A stretch of DNA of 64,000 nucleotides from Clostridiales bacterium (GTDB lineage: Bacteria; Bacillota; Clostridia; Lachnospirales; Lachnospiraceae): the NCBI GenBank assembly GCA_012839295.1, contig DUNO01000048.1, positions 62,001-126,000 of the forward strand, in the 5' to 3' direction. A program made the position numbers and the translations under genes. The notes under the pieces are model-generated. The model did not search any database, was not told where the DNA came from, and saw only the letters and a program-made list of their open reading frames with translations. The stretch's first letter is position 1, and every line of letters begins with the position of its first letter. Of this stretch, positions 51,411 to 60,466 are shown in pieces.

Positions 51411-53117
51411 TTACGGTAATGAGCCTCTTAAACTTTCATATGCTCCTATGATATTAACTACCCCATATCCCCAATCTCTATTCGGATACTCTATGTTAGG
51501 GCTCCTTGTGGCACCTCTGATCAATAGATTTTTGATATCAGTTCCATCTAAATGCTTAATGTATCCCCTTACCTTCCCCCATTCTAATAAAATCGCTGCG
51601 ATTCCGGCAATGTATGCGGCAGAAATACTGGTTCCAGAGTGGACTGAGTACTCATTGTTCGGTACTGGACATAACACATTTATTCCCGGAGCCGCCAGGG
51701 TAGGAGCTATTTGGTCAGTTCTTGTATACCCTTTACTGGCATAGGCATATAAGCTGTTATTCCCGGAATCATAGGCTGTTGCAACAATTGGTATGAACAC
51801 ATTGGCAGGCGAAGTTAATGTGGTATAAGGTGTTGAGCTAATAAAATAGGTTTCGGGGCCAATAAATTGATTGATTGGCAACCAGATGTTTAACCGCAAT
51901 TCGAGTGCCTTATTTACTTTATTTATCGTAAATTTCCACGTACCTTCCGTAGGATTTCTTAATCTGATAATTGTCAGCTGGGCACCGGACCGAGAACCAA
52001 CTATCTGAAAAAATATACTCAAGTCCGTATTTTCAAAAACAAAGCTGATATCCCTGTTTTCCTGCAGCCTTGGAGCAATTGTAGGTACATATTCCCCACC
52101 GGGAGTTACCAGTTCAATGGAGAAAGTATTCGGTGCATCACCCCATATTTCCATCATAAACCCTTTTTCATTTGCTCCTACCCTTAATTCTACAGTATCA
52201 CCATCGGTATTTCTACCCAATACTCTCTCATAGTGGCGTCTGCTCATGCCTTCATTTCCTGCAGCAATACTAACCGCTATTCCATCCACCTGGCCCAGGT
52301 TTGATAAATATGTACTAAGAGCCCCGTTTACATCATGGGCTCCTTGTGAAGTACCCAACCCTATGCAGATAGAAATAGGCCGATCCAGTTCCCTGGCCGT
52401 ATCTATTAGATATTTTACCCCCAGCATAATATCATTTTCCTGATAACATATTGCATCCTCCGGTACAGCATAAAGATAACGTATGTTTTGCTTGGCGGGC
52501 TTTAATTTAACAACTACAATTTCTGCATCAGGTACTAAGCCGGAAAAATTATTATTGTTATCCTCTGCACCGGCAATAATTCCGGCCAGCAGGGTGCCAT
52601 GGCCTATTTCATCTGTGCTTGGGACAATTTCAAGAGGGTTGGTGCTTTTTAATGCTAAATTTATTTGCTCACTGGTATACACGGATCCATAATTTATATT
52701 CCCGGGATGAATACCACTTTGTATTGTCTGATCCCAAATAGAAGCTATTTTGGTCGTTCCGTCCGCTTTAAGGAAAGTATTATGGCTGTAATCTATACCA
52801 GTATCAACAATCCCAATTAAAACGCCTTGACCCCTTAAATCCAGGTTGGGAATAGAACGGAGCCTGGTCACACCTGTTGCTTCAATATTTTGATAATCTA
52901 ATAACCCAAACAGGCGGACATAGATCTTATAACCATGTTCAATTAACGTATTAGGTGAGTATTGCTCCATCGGTACATAAACAGAATTGTAAATAGAGTC
53001 TATGTTGTTATAGCAAATATCCCGTTCTTCTAACTCTCCGTCGGAGGCAAGTTCATAATCCGTAATAAAATCTATATACTCTTCACTGATTACCCTATTG
53101 GTACAATTGCCGAACAT
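51411..53117 (-). CDS. Csp-like subtilisin-family (S8) serine protease
   Basis: 568 residues, close to the size of the clostridial CspA/B/C germination proteases. An N-terminal prodomain-like region of about 90 residues precedes the subtilase domain. The triad is complete: Asp105 in GIVDTGIDYSH, His173 in GHGTLLAG, Ser497 in HSGTSISAAY. A jelly-roll-like insertion of Csp proteases would correspond to about residues 290-420. No signal peptide, consistent with loading into the spore coat from the mother cell. Monocistronic, next to the collagen-like genes. In the spore it could process cortex-lytic or surface proteins; target unknown. Confidence 0.88.
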   Translation of the reverse strand: MFGNCTNRVISEEYIDFITDYELASDGELEERDICYNNIDSIYNSVYVPMEQYSPNTLIEHGYKIYVRLFGLLDYQNIEATGVTRLRSIPNLDLRGQGVLIGIVDTGIDYSHNTFLKADGTTKIASIWDQTIQSGIHPGNINYGSVYTSEQINLALKSTNPLEIVPSTDEIGHGTLLAGIIAGAEDNNNNFSGLVPDAEIVVVKLKPAKQNIRYLYAVPEDAICYQENDIMLGVKYLIDTARELDRPISICIGLGTSQGAHDVNGALSTYLSNLGQVDGIAVSIAAGNEGMSRRHYERVLGRNTDGDTVELRVGANEKGFMMEIWGDAPNTFSIELVTPGGEYVPTIAPRLQENRDISFVFENTDLSIFFQIVGSRSGAQLTIIRLRNPTEGTWKFTINKVNKALELRLNIWLPINQFIGPETYFISSTPYTTLTSPANVFIPIVATAYDSGNNSLYAYASKGYTRTDQIAPTLAAPGINVLCPVPNNEYSVHSGTSISAAYIAGIAAILLEWGKVRGYIKHLDGTDIKNLLIRGATRSPNIEYPNRDWGYGVVNIIGAYESLRGSLP

Positions 53118-53181
53118 TGAAATACTTCCTTAAATACTTTATTAAAATATATGCGGATGATCCGCTTTGAATGAGAGCATC

Positions 53182-53319
53182 CTACTCCTGCAGCAGATTA
53201 TTCATACTCTGGATGCTGGTCCAGAGCGTGGACGCATTATGGCGCAGGGAGGAGGCTGCCGGCGGTAGGATTCCGGACAATCCAAGCACCAGCAGCCCGG
53301 ATCCCGCCCTTTTTGACAT
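53182..53319 (-). CDS. Small protein of 45 residues after the collagen-like gene
   Basis: The ATG lies 10 bases after the collagen-like stop and opens 45 codons with a hydrophobic, Gly/Leu-rich start (GSGLLVLGLSGILPPAASS) and a hydrophilic tail. No strong ribosome binding site is seen, so it would depend on translational coupling. Its position at the end of a glycosyltransferase-collagen operon suggests a spore-surface or membrane-associated role, but no family was recognised. Confidence 0.4.
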   Translation of the reverse strand: MSKRAGSGLLVLGLSGILPPAASSLRHNASTLWTSIQSMNNLLQE

Positions 53320-53329
53320 TTGAATCACG

Positions 53330-54232
53330 CTATAGCTCAATAACAGCCAAACGTGCCTGGCCGCACACAACCGAGTTCGGACCCAGCAACTGGACCGTCA
53401 GGGCTACCTTATCACAATACCCATGGGTTGAAAACAGGATTGTTCCCGAAGCTGCGGTAAATGGAGTATAGTAGCATAAATTGCTTGATTTATAGTAAGT
53501 GAATAAATCAATATCCCCCTCCTGACCCGAGGCCTTTAAGAGGATCGCAAGGTTCTGCCTTGTATTAGCCACTCCTACGATATTGATAGAAAGGGAGACG
53601 CTGTAGCACCGGTCCGGCTCCAGCCAGATTATGCCACGGTCACAGTTCTCATATACTATGCATTTTCCTTTTATAAAATCACATTCCCAGGGAAATAGCT
53701 GGGAGCTTTTCCATTGATACTCCAGAGCCATCTCAGAAAAGGCTGCAACACAGTTTGAGGATTTTCCCGGAGGCCCCATTGGTCCGGTAGCTCCTGTGGC
53801 TCCTGTAGGCCCGGCAGGTCCCGCTGGCCCTGTGGTTCCTTTTGGTCCCCTTGGCCCGGTTGCTCCGGTTGCTCCCTTTGCTCCCGGTGGCCCGGTAGGC
53901 CCCTTAGGCCCGGTTGCTCCGGTCGGTCCCGTTGGGCCAAGGTCAGCAGCCATAACCTCTATCACACTATCCATCTTGCTTTTTAAGAAAACCTGATTCT
54001 GCATTACAACCTCCATCAGGGATTCCACACTTTTATTAACGTCTATTACCTCTTCAATGCTTGCCCCGCAATGCTCGGATAGCTCCTTTAGGACATATTG
54101 TATCTTTTCCCCCTCTGCATTAATAATATGGCTAAGACCAAGCTCTTCCATGGCAATAGAGGCTAATATCATATTTAATGCTTGCTCACGCGTGATCTCG
54201 GGACTAATGTTTGGAAATGTCGGCATTGACAT
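53330..54232 (-). CDS. Collagen-like spore-surface protein (BclA type)
   Basis: 300 residues: an N-terminal domain (about 1-95) shared with three other proteins in this window ([32 protein letters not shown]), about 20 Gly-X-Y triplets (about 99-160) and a 135-residue C-terminal beta-rich domain. Here the triplets include Lys, Arg and Pro (GPK, GAK, GPR, GPP), unlike the Thr-dominated repeats of the other three. The start at 54232 follows GGAGGTGATGTTA. It lies 23 bases after the glycosyltransferase gene, in the same operon. Confidence 0.85.
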
Positions 54233-54255
54233 TAACATCACCTCCTTAAAACGAT

Positions 54256-55329
54256 TTACGGTTTATTTTTAAAATAAACCTGATTGCTTAATGCGGCTGC
54301 GGAATACGGTTTTATTAAAAGTGCCTGGTCATTGTATTCCCCTGCCTTTTTGTAATTCCCGATATGGTCATAGCAGACGGCCAGCTCAATGAAGGGAATA
54401 TAGTCCCAACAGTCCGGCTGTATAAAGCCCCAGCTGTCCGCAGGCTTTTCTAAAGTCAAAATGAATTCAAACCAGAAGGCAGCACGCCTGTAATCCTCCT
54501 GTTTCTGATAATAGTAACCAAGCTGGCAGCAAATCTCCGCCCTCGGAGTATCATAGACAAAGCTTCGCAGCAAAGCCAAAAGTGCCTTTTCTGAATGATT
54601 TATTTCAAAATAACATTTGGCCAGCTCGCCGCAGGCAGTAATATTATCCTCCTTCCAGCCCAGCCCGGATGCCAGGAACTCTTCAAACTGGACGATTGCC
54701 TCCGCCGTCCTTCCATGATCCTTAAGCTCCCTTGCATAGTAATACATACCCCTTGGTGATAAAGAATCCCCCCTCTTTTTTATCCCCTCATAGATCTCCA
54801 GGTTTCTGGTTCCATGGACCGCACCCGGGGGCTTCCCATGGGTAATGGCAATATTTGAATTTATAGTCCTGCCATAAACCTGCAAATACTCATGGACCGG
54901 CTCCATCCACTTAAAATTAGCTTCCCTCTTCACCAGCCTCTCCCTATAATAGGAAAAAACAACATTTCCCCTCAGGTCAAAGCCGGTATTGTATTTCATC
55001 ATAACTGCATTGACCTCCGGATTAAGTGTTTCCTTTAATTTAAGGAACTCCAGGGCATCCTCCGGCATAAGGATATCATCCGCGTCCAGCCACAGGATAT
55101 AATCCATGGTGGCAAAGCTGTAGGAATAATTACGGGCTGCTGAAAAATCATTGATCCACTGGTAATCATATATTTTTTCCGTGTATGTTGAACATAGCTC
55201 CTTTGTGCGGTCGGTTGAACCAGTATCCACGATAATAATCTCATCCACTATATCTGCAACTGAATTCAGGCACCTTTCTATGGTGCTTTCTTCATTTTTT
55301 ACGATCATACATAGGCTGACGGTAATCAT
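54256..55329 (-). CDS. Family 2 glycosyltransferase with TPR repeats
   Basis: 357 residues. The N-terminal GT2 domain has [30 protein letters not shown] and the metal-binding LDADD motif near residue 90. The C-terminal 150 residues are TPR-like helical repeats, as in protein-directed glycosyltransferases such as those modifying bacterial glycoproteins. First gene of an operon with a collagen-like protein, so it probably glycosylates that repeat region. A mother-cell-sigma-like promoter lies upstream. RBS GGAGTGAAAAAG. Confidence 0.9.
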
Positions 55330-55381
55330 TCTTTTTCACTCCTGTTACACGGGAAGCTTCCCTCTCCACAACGCTACACAA

Positions 55382-55408
55382 TATTATATGTAGTATCAGG
55401 ATACCGGT
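55382..55408 (-). promoter_or_regulatory. Sigma-K/E-like promoter of the minus-strand glycosyltransferase
   Basis: On the minus strand AC (55407-55408), 16 bases, CATATAATA (55382-55390), matching the mother-cell pattern AC-N16-CATANNNTA, 53 bases upstream of the ATG at 55329. Confidence 0.5.
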
Positions 55409-55431
55409 GACGATATATTGATGCTTTTGTC

Positions 55432-55458
55432 ACATTTTGTAACCTATAACATACAATA
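55432..55458 (+). promoter_or_regulatory. Sigma-K/E-like promoter of the plus-strand glycosyltransferase
   Basis: AC (55432-55433), 16 bases, CATACAATA (55450-55458), matching AC-N16-CATANNNTA; CATACAAT is also the sigma-E -10 consensus. It lies 34 bases upstream of the GTG at 55493 and mirrors the promoter on the other strand. Confidence 0.5.
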
Positions 55459-55492
55459 CTATTGACCTATATAAATTGGGGATGATTGAATT

Positions 55493-56560
55493 GTGAGTAC
55501 CCTTAGCCTGTGTATGATCGTAAAAGATGAGGAAGCTAATATCAGACGTTGTCTGGAGAGCGTGCGCCTCGTTGCAGATGAAATCATTATCGTCGATACC
55601 GGTTCCAGCGACAGTACAAAAGCTATCTGTTCAGAATTTACCGATAACATCTTTGATTATCAATGGGACGGAAATTTTGCAGACGCACGTAACTTCAGCA
55701 TCGGGAAGGCATCCTCCGACTGGGTTTTATGGATGGATGCTGATGAAGAATTATACATGAAGAGCCCTGATAAATTAAAACAGCACCTTGATAGGGAGGA
55801 GTCCGTATTTTATCCGGTCAGGATGCTCCATATCATCGATACTGTTTCGGAATACCATAAGCAGCCTTATGTTTCCTATCACCATCGGCTCTTTCGAAAT
55901 AGATTAAATTTTAAATTCAACGGAGCGATCCATGAAAAGCTCATATTACCCGAACCAATCGAAGGGATACCGGTGGATAACTGCCTGGAAATCCTGCATT
56001 ACGGTTATTTAGAGAAGGATGCGGCAAAAAAAGCCTACCGCAACCTGGAGCTCTTGTTCCAGGAAAAGCAGATCCAGCGTGATGATCCCTGGCTTGACTA
56101 TCATATTGCTGCGGAGCTCTACCGTTTACAGCAGGTTGAAGCAGCCTTCCAATTTGTTAACCATTCGATTGTGGGATTTTTGTCCCTGGGAGTTATGCCC
56201 CCGGCTCTCGCCTACAAGCTAAAGTATGATATGCTTATTTCCATGGGCAATATGGAGCAGGCGTACCAGGGGATTGAGAAAGCCATTGAATTATATCCCG
56301 ATTATGTCGAGTTGCACTTTTACCGAGGGGTCATCTTATACTCTTTAAAGCATTATGAAGCTGCCCTGGGAGCCTTCACCTACTGTCTTATCCTGGGGGA
56401 GGCTAATCCCGGTTATCTGATCCGGTTAGGCAGTGGCAGCTTTCATGCCTACCACTTTCTTGGAGAATGCTATACCAGGATGGGAAGGTACGACATCGCC
56501 CAATCAGCATATCAGCGGGCAGCCAGGTATCCTCAGCGGTTTTCTCCTGCAAAGCTCTAG
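55493..56560 (+). CDS. Family 2 glycosyltransferase with TPR repeats
   Basis: 355 residues, related to the divergent gene at 54256-55329. GT2 motifs [31 protein letters not shown] and MDADEE near residue 82; the C-terminal half has TPR-like helices (ALGAFTYCLILGEANPGYLI). The GTG start at 55493 follows TTGGGGATG. Collagen-like genes follow after 125 bases with no terminator in between, so they may be read from the same promoter. Likely role: glycosylation of the Thr-rich collagen-like repeats. Confidence 0.9.
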   Translation: MSTLSLCMIVKDEEANIRRCLESVRLVADEIIIVDTGSSDSTKAICSEFTDNIFDYQWDGNFADARNFSIGKASSDWVLWMDADEELYMKSPDKLKQHLDREESVFYPVRMLHIIDTVSEYHKQPYVSYHHRLFRNRLNFKFNGAIHEKLILPEPIEGIPVDNCLEILHYGYLEKDAAKKAYRNLELLFQEKQIQRDDPWLDYHIAAELYRLQQVEAAFQFVNHSIVGFLSLGVMPPALAYKLKYDMLISMGNMEQAYQGIEKAIELYPDYVELHFYRGVILYSLKHYEAALGAFTYCLILGEANPGYLIRLGSGSFHAYHFLGECYTRMGRYDIAQSAYQRAARYPQRFSPAKL

Positions 56561-56684
56561 GAGAATGGGGTTTTATTACAAAGAGGTTATTGTTCTAACA
56601 GCAGGGATTGGTATGTGAAGCCCGTGTGATTTTACTTTAATAATACTAAAAAGGATTCATCATTTGAAAGGAAGTGTATTTAAC

Positions 56685-57788
56685 ATGTCAATGCCTAATT
56701 TTCCAGTAATCAGCCCTCCCTTGACAAGAGAGGATGCCGTCAATCAGATTCTGTCTTCAATTGCTCTGGAAGAGCTGGGATTAAGCCACATCATTAACGC
56801 AGAAGGTGAAAAACTCCAATATATCCTCGGAACTCTTCCCGGTATCAGCGGACCGCCTGCGACTGTAGACGATGTATTGGCTGCCAACGATAGTGTAAGA
56901 TCCATGATTGATACTATCGCCCAGGCCCAGCTTTTCTATAAAAATAAAATGCAAAGTGCCCTGGCCTCCTCTGAGCTGCAGGGTGCTACAGGTCCTACTG
57001 GTGCCACTGGCCCTACCGGTCCTTCAGGAGGTCCAACAGGTGCTACCGGTGCCACCGGCCCTACTGGACCTACTGGTCCTACTGGCGCAGCTGGTATTGC
57101 TGGAGATACCGGGCCTACTGGTCCTACAGGTGCTACGGGTGCCACCGGCGCTACGGGTGCTACCGGCGCTACGGGTTCTACTGGCGCCATTGGTCCTGCG
57201 GGTGCAGTCGGTGCCGCCGGCGCTACGGGTGCCACTGGGGCTACCGGATCCGTTGGACCAACCGGTGCTGCCGGGCCTGCTGGTGCTACCGGCGCTACGG
57301 GTCCTACCGGCGCTACGGGTCCTACGGGTACCACCGGTGCCACTGGACCTACCGGGCCTACCGGACCTACCGGAACCAATATCACTGACACAAGCGGCTT
57401 TGCCGTTAACACCACCGGCGCTACAATTACCGTAGCAGTTGCCGGAACCCTGGTACCTCTTCCCAATGCCCAAGTGCTGTCTCCTGATATTACGGTTAAT
57501 GGGACGGATGATACCTTTACTATTGCTCCGGCAGGAAGATACCGTATGTCCTACAATGTGAATACTACCGCGGGAATAATTCTTGGCACACGGCTGATTA
57601 TCAATGGGGTGGCTAACGTAGCCTCCACCATTATACCGCTGCTAAGCTTATCGAGCTATTCCAATGAGATCATAGTTGATATTCCTGCAAATACTACGGT
57701 ATCACTTCAATTATTTGGTCTCACCGGAGCCGCTGTATTATTGGGAAGCTCTGCCGGTGCCTCCCTGATGATGATCCGGCTTAGCTAG
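56685..57788 (+). CDS. Collagen-like spore-surface protein, Thr-rich repeats
   Basis: 367 residues: shared N-terminal domain (about 1-98), about 45 Gly-X-Y triplets (about 104-246), mostly GPT and GAT with a few GPA/GAV, and a C-terminal domain of about 120 residues ([20 protein letters not shown], ending SLMMIRLS) like the trimerisation domains of BclA-type exosporium proteins. Start at 56685 with GAAAGGAAGTG upstream. Threonines at nearly every third position are candidate glycosylation sites. Forms an operon with the next gene, 15 bases away. Confidence 0.88.
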
Positions 57789-57803
57789 AAGGAGGGGATA
57801 TAT

Positions 57804-58910
57804 ATGTCACAGCCTAGTTTTCCGACCATAAGTCCTGCTCTGACCAGAGGGGATGCCATTAACCAGATTATCTCCTCCATCGCACTGGAGGAGCTCGGCA
57901 TAAGCCATGTTTTGAATGCTGAGGGGGAAAAGCTGCAATTTTTGCTTGGAACGCTGCCCGGATTAACCGGGGGGAATCCAACCTATGAAGATTTAATCAA
58001 TGCCAATGACAGTGTCCTGGATATGGTAAATGCCACCCTAGACAACCAAATGATATTGAATGCAAAAATGGACTTAGCCTTTAACGCACCGGTAATTCAG
58101 GGGGTAACCGGCGCTACTGGAGCCACTGGCCCTACCGGGCCTGCCACTGGAGCCACCGGTGCTACCGGCCCCACGGGTCCTACAGGACCTACAGGCGCTA
58201 CCGGGGCTACCGGTGCCCTGGGTGCCGTAGGTCCTGCCGGGGCTGCTGGTCCTACAGGTGCTGACGGTGCCGCCGGCCCTGTCGGTGCCACGGGTTCCGA
58301 CGGGCCTACCGGGCCTACCGGCGCCACTGGAATAACCGGCGCTACTGGGGCTACGGGAAGCATTGGTCCCGCAGGTCCCGATGGCGCTACCGGCACCACC
58401 GGTGCTACTGGGGCTACAGGTGTTGGGGGAGTTACCGGCCCTACCGGAGCTACCGGCGCCACCGGCCCTACGGGGCCTACCGGCGCTATGGGTCCTAATC
58501 TGACTGCTACTGCCGGGTTTGCAGCCAATACCTCCGGCACTGTAATCACCGTGTTACTCGGGGGCACGAATATTCCGCTGCCAAATGCCCAGGTATTCTC
58601 AGCGGATATCGTTCCAAATGGGGCAAATACTGTTTTTACGGTCAATACCTTTGGCCGCTACCGGATTTCCTACCATATTAATACGAACGCATCACTGCTC
58701 ATGGGATCACGGCTAATGATAAATGGCGCCGCCAATACGGCATCTACCATAAATCCTGCCCTGGCAACATCAAACTATTCCAATGAGATAGAAATTGACC
58801 TTGGTGTTGGAGCAACCATATCCCTGCAAATGTTTGCAACCATTATTGGTGTTGCAACCTTATTGAGTGGCGGAGCCGGTGCTTCCTTGATGATTATCCG
58901 TTTAAGCTAA
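57804..58910 (+). CDS. Collagen-like spore-surface protein, Thr-rich repeats
   Basis: 368 residues with the same architecture as the preceding gene: N-terminal domain ([20 protein letters not shown] region), triplets from about residue 98 to 236 including GAD, GPD and GSD, and a C-terminal domain clearly homologous to its neighbour's ([10 protein letters not shown] end). Very likely a tandem duplicate. RBS AGAAGGAGGGGATATAT before the ATG. A GC-rich hairpin follows at 58932. Confidence 0.88.
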
Positions 58911-58931
58911 CTAATAGCTGGCATACCAACG

Positions 58932-58986
58932 GGGCTGCTGCAGAATTATTCTTCCATCAGGAGCGCGGATAGCTTTGCAGCAGCCC
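58932..58986 (+). repeat. Conserved hairpin after collagen-like genes, copy 1
   Basis: GGGCTGCTGCA (58932-58942) pairs with TGCAGCAGCCC (58976-58986). The loop contains CCATCAGGA and GGATAGC, also found in copy 2 at 59993-60048. No T-run follows, so a standard terminator role is unclear. Confidence 0.65.
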
Positions 58987-59077
58987 TTAAACCTGGCGAA
59001 GGCAGGGATGGCAGGAGAAAGGGGAGAAATCATCAATAAAGGTAGCTATTTATTATTAGAGAGGAAGTGAGTTTAAT

Positions 59078-59914
59078 ATGTCTATGCCCAATTTTCCGGT
59101 AATCAGTCCGCCGCTCACACGGGAGGATGCCGTGAATCAGATACTAGCCTCTATTGCCCTGGAGGAACTGGCTTTAAGCCATATCATCAATGCAGAGGGC
59201 GAGAAGCTCCAGTATATTATAGGAACCCTTCCCGGTATCAGCGGGCCGCCGGCAACTGTGGAGGACGTACTTGCTGCCAATGATAGCGTAAGGTCAATGC
59301 TGGACTCCATTGTCCAGAACCAACTAATATGCAGGAATAAGATGCAAAGTGCTCTGGCATCCTCGGGGCAGGGAATTACCGGTCCTACTGGAGCTACTGG
59401 CCCTACAGGTGCTACTGGTGCCACCGGCGCTACTGGTCCTACTGGCGCTACGGGCGCTACGGGTCCTACTGGCGCTACGGGTCCTACGGGAGAAGTTGTT
59501 TTGGCTTATGGATCTTTAAGAGGAGCTAGTGTAGAGGTACCTGGAGCAACATTCACACCCGTGCCATTTAGTATCGTTGGTCCTTTGTCATCTACAATCA
59601 CAGTAAGCCTGTCCGGCAATGAATTAGTGGTAGGAGAAAGCGGAATTTATCAAATAACAATATCTATTAACGCTGAAGCCACTGTCGCCCCGGATCCGGA
59701 CCAGCCATATTTAAACGCTATTATTACTGTCAATGGTTTACCTATTTTTGGCGATACCACTACGTTTTTTAAGATAGCCAACAGAAGCAGTTCATCCTTT
59801 GTCGTGCAAGCCTCTTTAACAGCAGGAGATGAAGTAGGCGTAAGTATTATTACGGATTTTCCTGTTTTAGGTTATATGAACCGTTCTTTAACTATTGTTC
59901 AGTTAAGTAATTAA
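59078..59914 (+). CDS. Collagen-like spore-surface protein with a different C-terminal domain
   Basis: 278 residues. The N-terminal domain is almost the same as that of the 56685 gene ([18 protein letters not shown], ending in [15 protein letters not shown]). Only 14 triplets follow (about 99-140), all with Thr at the third position apart from the last (GEV). The last 138 residues form a C1q/TNF-like beta domain ([29 protein letters not shown]) unrelated in sequence to those of the two preceding genes. RBS GAGAGGAAGTGAG. Confidence 0.85.
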
Positions 59915-59992: not shown

Positions 59993-60048
59993 GGGCTGCT
60001 GCAAAACGATCCCTCCATCAGGAAAGAAGGATAGCCTTGCAGCAGCCC
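59993..60048 (+). repeat. Conserved hairpin after collagen-like genes, copy 2
   Basis: GGGCTGCTGCAA (59993-60004) pairs with TTGCAGCAGCCC (60037-60048). It shares the loop segments CCATCAGGA and GGATAGC with copy 1. It also borders the alpha-galactosidase remnant on the other strand. Confidence 0.65.
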
Positions 60049-60057
60049 TTAAATTTG

Positions 60058-60466
60058 TTATTGTTTCTTTAAATACACCGCAACAGCCTTCCAATTCTCT
60101 CTTGGCTTATAGCTTAAGCGGTTTCCGGCAAGCGTAACCTCCTCCATCCTATCCGAATAGATTTCATCTACCTTATAATTGCTATCCTCCGGCAGCCCAA
60201 TACTGCACTCATAGCCGGGGCTTCCGTCAAATACGTGGAATACCGCATAAGCATCGCCCTTGTCAGCGTATCGCAATATTCCCTGCCAGCCCTGGGGATG
60301 CCGGTAGCTTTTTATCTCTGTCCCAAACCACTCCGTATAACCATCCCTCCATGCTCCATACACTTCGGATGCGGTGCACCTTTATGGTATCCGGGCCATC
60401 CCCCTCCACATAGGGCGTGATCCCTCCCAGGGAGAAGCTTGAAATCATCTCAAGGGTCACTTCTAC
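60058..60466 (-). pseudogene. Alpha-galactosidase (GH36) remnant with internal deletion
   Basis: Two frames carry GH36-like pieces. From about 60466 one reads LEMISSFSLGGITPYVEGDG and HRIRSVWSMEGW, typical of the N-terminal domain of alpha-galactosidases. From about 60340 to the stop at 60058 another frame reads GWQGILRYADKGDAYAVFHV and ENWKAVAVYL, typical of their C-terminal end. The catalytic barrel (about 500 residues) is missing and the frames do not match. It follows the aldolase gene directly, whose stop lies at 60450. Confidence 0.65.

Follow-up and report, generated by a model that had tools for sequence, protein, structure and literature searches.

The DNA analysed here (the window) is a stretch of 64,000 nucleotides from a Clostridiales bacterium of the Lachnospiraceae (GenBank assembly GCA_012839295.1, contig DUNO01000048.1, positions 62,001 to 126,000). 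It carries genes for an S8 protease, two glycosyltransferases (GTs), gtA and gtB, and four collagen-like proteins, clpA to clpD, which an initial annotation had described as a spore-surface glycoprotein cassette. All seven genes were confirmed, with the same coordinates as in that annotation. The features of the locus are as follows.

51411..53117, minus strand: S8 (Csp-related) subtilase with a complete triad (Pfam Peptidase_S8, 90.7 bits)
53330..54232, minus strand (open reading frame to 54241): clpA, with an A-ENA-type N-terminal domain, 20 Gly-X-Y triplets and, by model, a TNF/ExsF-like head
54256..55329, minus strand: gtA, SgtA-like GT-A + TPR glycosyltransferase, 23 bp upstream of the clpA ATG
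55382..55408, minus strand: SigK-type promoter toward gtA, AC-N16-CATATAATA, kept in a same-genus genome (G012, locus L033)
55432..55458, plus strand: SigK-type promoter toward gtB, AC-N16-CATACAATA, kept in the same genome
55493..56560, plus strand: gtB, second, deeply divergent GT-A + TPR glycosyltransferase
56685..57788, plus strand (open reading frame from 56664): clpB, with an A-ENA-type N-terminal domain, 45 triplets (33 Gly-X-Thr) and a BclA_C head
57804..58910, plus strand: clpC, tandem partner of clpB, with an A-ENA-type N-terminal domain, 44 triplets (29 Gly-X-Thr) and a BclA_C head
58932..58986, plus strand: 55-bp hairpin, the first of a pair flanking clpD
59078..59914, plus strand: clpD, with an A-ENA-type N-terminal domain, 14 triplets (13 Gly-X-Thr) and a BclA_C match below the cut-off
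59993..60048, plus strand: 56-bp hairpin, the second copy, downstream of clpD

On the minus strand gtA is followed by clpA and, after a further 212 bp, by the protease gene. On the plus strand gtB is followed after 124 bp by clpB, after 15 bp by clpC, and then by clpD between the hairpins. Alignment and ribosome-binding sites suggest that the true starts are ATG 54232 for clpA and ATG 56685 for clpB; the alternative GTG start of clpA at 54241 overlaps its ribosome-binding site.

The initial annotation noted one shared N-terminal domain in the four collagen-like proteins, and this is borne out over about 95 residues, with 56%, 57% and 88% identity to clpB in clpA, clpC and clpD, respectively. 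Naming the domain through Pfam was rejected, as no match exceeded a cut-off there; trigger factor was listed at an E-value of 0.02, below its own cut-off. A profile of 62 members of the domain matched the solved chain of PDB 9ihh, 'Ex vivo spore-silk A-ENA fibers', with an E-value of 2.1e-26 (profile positions 1-92 of 94 on chain residues 1-88 of 101), and the runners-up had E-values of 0.19 and 0.22. The domain was modelled as a hairpin of two long helices at residues 15-48 and 61-94 (predicted local distance difference test score, pLDDT, 87.7; predicted template modelling score 0.65). In a Foldseek search with this model, 9ihh ranked first (probability 1.00, template modelling score 0.75, 37% identity), though its E-value was only 0.022. 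From the profile match and the Foldseek rank, all four collagens start with a domain that, on sequence comparison, is homologous to the A-ENA subunit, a point missing from the initial annotation. The 9ihh entry consists of fibres with 29 chains. No literature on A-ENA or spore silk was found in a search outside whose reach lay bioRxiv and most subscription journals, and 9ihh is used here by its PDB title and sequence.

Behind this domain, the collagen family PF01391 was above its cut-off in all four proteins, and the six PF01391 matches (E-value of 0.001 or less) of the whole genome (6.36 Mb, 97.9% complete) all fall in the clp cluster; the repeats are therefore not a chance resemblance. Thr occupies the third triplet position in 10 of 20 triplets in clpA, 33 of 45 in clpB, 29 of 44 in clpC and 13 of 14 in clpD, so that the earlier statement of Thr in most third positions in three of the four proteins is right. 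If fully extended, the stalks would be about 12-37 nm long, at the 2.8 Å per residue adopted from the available text of PMC11952670. The C-terminal heads of clpB and clpC matched BclA_C (PF18573) with 138.4 and 132.7 bits, so these two proteins combine a collagen region with a BclA_C head as Bacillus BclA does. With 34.3 bits, the clpD head stayed short of the cut-off of 38. No Pfam domain matched the clpA head, which models as a TNF/ExsF-like jelly roll (pLDDT 92.5), with ExsFA/BxpB as the first structural match (E-value 8e-7) and TNF-family folds next. On these grounds, a TNF/C1q-type head is present on three of the clp proteins and probably on all four. The exosporium leader (TIGR03720), which binds ExsF, gave no match in any clp protein at an E-value of 5 or less, a search in which HMMER filters may drop very weak matches.

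The two GTs are divergent GT2-TPR enzymes, as the initial annotation described them; both have the GT2 domain and TPRs, and their N-terminal halves are 39% identical in a 189-column alignment. gtA has 357 residues, with PF00535 at 5-109 followed by TPR models, which is the layout of the SgtA type. It begins with MITVSLCMI where SgtA has MITISLCMI, a comparison of only nine residues in which those of SgtA were translated from a published primer. Like SgtA, gtA adjoins a Thr-rich collagen gene (clpA), and this holds clade-wide with exceptions. In a tree of 74 rows, gtA (44 rows) and gtB (13 rows) fell into separate clades with approximate likelihood ratio test (SH-aLRT) supports of 82 and 99, respectively, which carry a long-branch warning. 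Two more GT2-TPR paralogues of other clades are encoded elsewhere in the window genome (locus L119, contig C12 of G000), one of them with relatives in many same-genus species.

Enzymes of the gtA clade (318 bits or more) were present in 19 of 146 other Clostridia genomes, including G096, where gtA is split across two frames; G083 and G135, whose matches of 258-270 bits resemble that of the window genome's other paralogue at 274, were counted as lacking it. Those of the gtB clade (500 bits or more) were present in two, both times next to A-ENA collagens and gtA, and weaker gtB matches (240-299 bits) were other proteins in frames of 593-642 residues. On this distribution, gtA would seem to serve Gly-X-Thr collagens in general, and gtB to be specific to the cassette. 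In an Anaerocolumna metagenome-assembled genome, a gtB-type gene (L127:7035-7889, plus strand) appears broken by three in-frame TGA codons, and the neighbouring A-ENA collagen genes are open.

The co-occurrence of GTs and collagens, which the initial annotation had named as a check, was found in this sample. A collagen match (E-value of 1e-6 or less) was present in 16 of the 19 genomes with a gtA-clade gene, compared with 33 of the 127 others (Fisher p 1.6e-6). Thr made up at least 0.4 of the Y positions in 13 of 15 genomes with gtA and in 3 of 23 without it (Mann-Whitney p 1.2e-4 by genome); collapsed by family, p was 0.0044, and two of three within-family contrasts were favourable. This test covered 38 of the 49 collagen-bearing genomes other than the window genome (15 of 16 with gtA, 23 of 33 without), the remainder having no listed coordinates or lying in stretches that were not fetched. 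Each genome was represented by the longest collagen open reading frame around its best listed match, some of these frames being cut by the ends of the stretch. The Thr pattern initially came to light in the set of relatives and was then tested on the class sample, the two having G000, G050 and G052 in common. Fourteen of the 19 gtA regions, picked partly for collagen matches listed nearby, were examined; nine had a collagen open reading frame, six of these without an A-ENA domain. The G052 region, looked at in addition to these 14, had none. In G082 (L270), a giant open frame lies directly upstream of a gtA-clade gene; the part of it seen has about 769 Gly-X-Y triplets, 97% of them with Thr at Y.

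A search of genome contigs for the N-terminal domain gave at least 565 confirmed matches, and the 80 best loci were retained. Among the taxa in their record titles are Oscillospiraceae, Lachnospiraceae, Ruminiclostridium, Syntrophomonas, Desulfotomaculum, Clostridium puniceum and Paenibacillus. A GT was present in 36 of the 80 loci, and in 27 of the 51 flanked on either side by 1.5 kb or more. Thr at Y had a median of 0.58 in loci with a GT and 0.48 in loci without (70 and 64 proteins), a small difference between groups that are not independent, as a single genome may contribute loci to each. The tandem of two A-ENA collagens recurs among the 80 loci. In ten (L123, L127, L128, L177, L180, L181, L182, L193, L197 and L199) the first head scores best to that of clpB and the second to that of clpC; in Oscillospiraceae-type loci the N-terminal domain of the first gene is clpB-like and the heads show no clear sorting. 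The divergent gtB/gtA pair recurs as well (L033, L128, L140, L165, L181, L182, L184 and also G165; G111 appears to be the genome of L182, as the gtB coordinates are identical).

The 163-bp gap between gtA and gtB contains the two outward SigK-type promoter motifs. The SigK -35 element AC, and a -10 element common to SigE, are described in the available part of PMC3789822. In Markov-simulated sequences the mean was 0.08 sites, and only 2 of 500 sequences reached two. In the same-genus G012 both motifs are retained at similar distances with altered spacers. The SigK and SpoIVA families exceed their curated cut-offs in the window genome. One further strict SigK site lies at 52671 (plus strand), inside the protease gene.

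The SigK-type promoters, the absence in a simple hydropathy scan of LPXTG motifs and of signal peptide-like or strongly hydrophobic N-terminal segments from the seven proteins, the co-occurrence and the Thr enrichment all support the spore-surface glycoprotein cassette of the initial annotation. We propose, with a probability of roughly 0.7, that the locus is a mother-cell (SigK-type) cassette for glycosylated, collagen-stalked fibrils, which we infer to lie on the spore surface. The N-terminal helical hairpin would dock into or build a spore-surface fibre, the Gly-X-Thr collagen would be the stalk of each clp protein, and the C-terminal TNF/C1q-type head would trimerise and set the collagen register. 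The cytosolic GT-A/TPR enzymes would glycosylate the Thr residues of the stalk ahead of assembly. Of the two, gtA would most likely be the general initiator, with the sugar and linkage that SgtA has on BclA3 peptides (O-GlcNAc), and gtB may be a second enzyme, restricted to the cassette, which modifies these same stalks or lengthens the sugar.

Several observations weigh against this proposal. No GT lies nearby in 24 of the 51 well-flanked A-ENA loci. Among eight divergent loci including the window, strict SigK motifs were found both ways in three (window, L033 and L181), one way in one (L165) and in neither direction in four; a ninth, L127, has no readable pair. No strict SigK site was found upstream of clpB, clpC or clpD. 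Three genomes with gtA (G052, G085 and G113) lack a collagen match at the E-value used, and in two more (G127 and G088) the measured collagen is Gln-rich (Thr 0.05 and 0.04). Thr-rich collagens are present in three genomes without gtA (G066, G067 and G126), and one of the three within-family Thr contrasts goes the opposite way. In the hydropathy scan, the heads of clpB (1.78) and clpC (1.95) showed hydrophobic stretches. A stand-alone A-ENA gene was not found in the window genome, where a divergent copy could have been missed, and for this reason the clp proteins are unlikely to dock onto an ordinary A-ENA fibre in this genome.

To the strongest alternative we give somewhat less than an even chance: the locus may encode a plain exosporium nap of the BclA type, comparable to sgtA-bclA3 of C. 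difficile or to the C. sporogenes genes, in which the N-terminal domain is a mere targeting tag and no fibre is made. It differs from the fibril cassette in the fibre step only, so that the odds of the two overlap. The likeness of gtA to SgtA in length, layout and first residues and the clustering of collagen-like-repeat and GT genes in C. sporogenes favour the plain nap, as does the lack of a stand-alone A-ENA gene; it is opposed by the end-to-end homology of the N-terminal domain to a subunit whose structure was solved in fibre form. The lack of a stand-alone gene may also mean that the clp collagens polymerise themselves. We put forward only tentatively, as a possible but rather unlikely form of the proposal, that they build the spore-silk fibre, with an A-ENA core from which each subunit projects a sugar-coated stalk and a TNF-type head; such a glycosylated 'bottlebrush' appendage would replace the bare A-ENA fibre of related species.

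In the six sampled Clostridia with collagen-fused A-ENA (G000, G012, G051, G096, G111 and G165), no match lies in an open frame of 140 residues or less, and the same-genus G014, G032 and G017 have a stand-alone copy of 86-103 residues only. For this comparison, which uses open-frame lengths, short open reading frames at the edges of 3-kb loci were disregarded as truncated neighbours. The fused and stand-alone forms occur together in Paenibacillus/Bacillus loci (L183, L188, L191, L194 and L196), where non-collagen A-ENA-like genes (99-173 residues) lie beside A-ENA collagens as candidate fibre and tip sets. Large non-collagen proteins of 685 and 692 residues (L039 and L040) also carry A-ENA-like domains, near copies of 100-128 residues.

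Known systems resemble the locus in part. In C. difficile, according to the accessible text of PMC7157674, SgtA puts beta-O-GlcNAc on Thr of BclA3 stalk peptides; like gtA it is a GT-A + TPR enzyme (358 residues), and its gene adjoins bclA3, immediately upstream of this Gly-Pro-Thr collagen gene. bclA3 (CD3349) is positively SigK-controlled, and CD3350, a GT2 gene that to judge from its number is sgtA, stands in the same mother-cell table (PMC3789822, available part). Unlike that system, the window has two deeply separate GT clades, four collagens, A-ENA-type N-termini and TNF-type heads, whereas C-terminal membrane helices are predicted for BclA3 (PMC7157674). The A-ENA subunit of 9ihh, compared by title and sequence, shares about 95 homologous residues with the clp N-termini and is their best fold match; however, it is a subunit of 101 residues, and in the window the domain is fused to collagen and head. 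In B. thuringiensis, the available text of PMC11952670 describes F-BclA and F-Anchor as collagen proteins coupled to the spore fibre F-ENA. F-BclA has a fibre-coupling N-terminus, a role proposed here for that of the clp proteins, and like them a collagen region and a BclA-C-like head, with a putative GT gene nearby, but F-ENA uses DUF4183 and hook peptides instead of a helical hairpin, and the clp proteins have no exosporium-leader match. The C. sporogenes bclB/bclA-GT-csxA cluster combines collagen-like-repeat genes with one GT gene, which its authors suggest may glycosylate the repeat proteins (PMC7333573 and PMC4942563, in the portions available); the window differs in having two GTs and A-ENA-type N-termini.

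The initial annotation further suggested dedicated pairs, in which gtA would modify clpA only and gtB clpB to clpD only. The co-directional arrangement in the window (gtA-clpA and gtB-clpB-clpC, possibly with clpD) and the similar halves of L127 and L128 would fit such pairs, but gtB is missing from the locus in 26 of 34 gtA loci, and 15 of 20 A-ENA genomes, hand-picked from the best 80 loci and of unstated completeness, have no gtB in a whole-genome search (E-value of 1e-70 or less). These 15 include 12 genomes with Oscillospiraceae-type loci (seven titled Oscillospiraceae, Oscillibacter or Flavonifractor), 11 of which have gtA in the locus and one of which (L146) does not. In these loci gtA comes after one or two collagen genes whose products have BclA_C-like heads, and in most clpA relatives a linker rich in Pro, and often in Cys, stands where collagen would be. 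Conversely, G012 (assembly 93% complete) keeps gtB, gtA and clpA, its single A-ENA match genome-wide, and clpB to clpD were not found. The collagens without an A-ENA domain in six of the nine gtA regions of the class sample also speak against exclusive pairing. Dedicated pairs were rejected on gene order and on presence and absence across relatives, since gtA often occurs beside A-ENA collagens without gtB and gtB persists in G012 without clpB to clpD; we regard them as improbable.

It is very improbable that the GTs target another protein, such as flagellin, and lie here by chance. GmaR, which acts on flagellin, and SunS are the best solved GT matches for gtA and gtB alike, with GmaR the best for both GT domains; against this stand the repeated adjacency to collagens, the Thr enrichment across families, and the fact that all three gtB-clade matches of at least 500 bits in 147 genomes (window included) adjoin A-ENA collagens. 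Least probable of all are vegetative cell-surface collagen adhesins of the Scl/Lcl type glycosylated by general GTs. In their favour, NCBIfam collagen-adhesin models are the top named matches, far below their cut-offs; the lack of LPXTG and of signal peptide-like segments in the simple scan, the SigK-type promoters and the N-terminal homology to a spore-fibre subunit all argue otherwise.

The glycosylated fibril cassette would connect a widespread collagen-like family and SgtA-like enzymes with a spore-fibre subunit of recently solved structure, and the comparative evidence points to Gly-X-Thr collagens as targets of such enzymes across Clostridia. The composition and function of sugar-coated spore surfaces thereby become directly testable.

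The protease had been described as Csp-like and as part of the cassette. Its triad is complete, with Asp, His and Ser motifs beginning at residues 103, 172 and 495, and it is Csp-related; its scores against the NCBIfam CspBA and CspC models (292.5 of 1250 and 264.1 of 675 bits needed) are far under the cut-offs. Four other S8 homologues with 49, 49, 47 and 34% identity are encoded in the window genome. S8 genes lie near only one of the 80 A-ENA loci (L141, which has two), many loci being cut by contig ends, and the syntenic locus of G012 has no S8 match. A conserved place in the cassette was rejected on these two counts, and as S8 genes are so rare near related loci the protease is probably best called a neighbour.

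At the other end of the locus, the hairpins around clpD are near-identical (two matches in the real sequence, none in 100 shuffles); they matched no Rfam family over threshold and turned up in neither L033 nor L119. The adjoining open reading frame of 101 residues at 60058-60363 (minus strand) matched nothing in Pfam, NCBIfam or the PDB and may be what is left of a truncated gene. From its 88% N-terminal identity to clpB, clpD looks like a recent duplicate.

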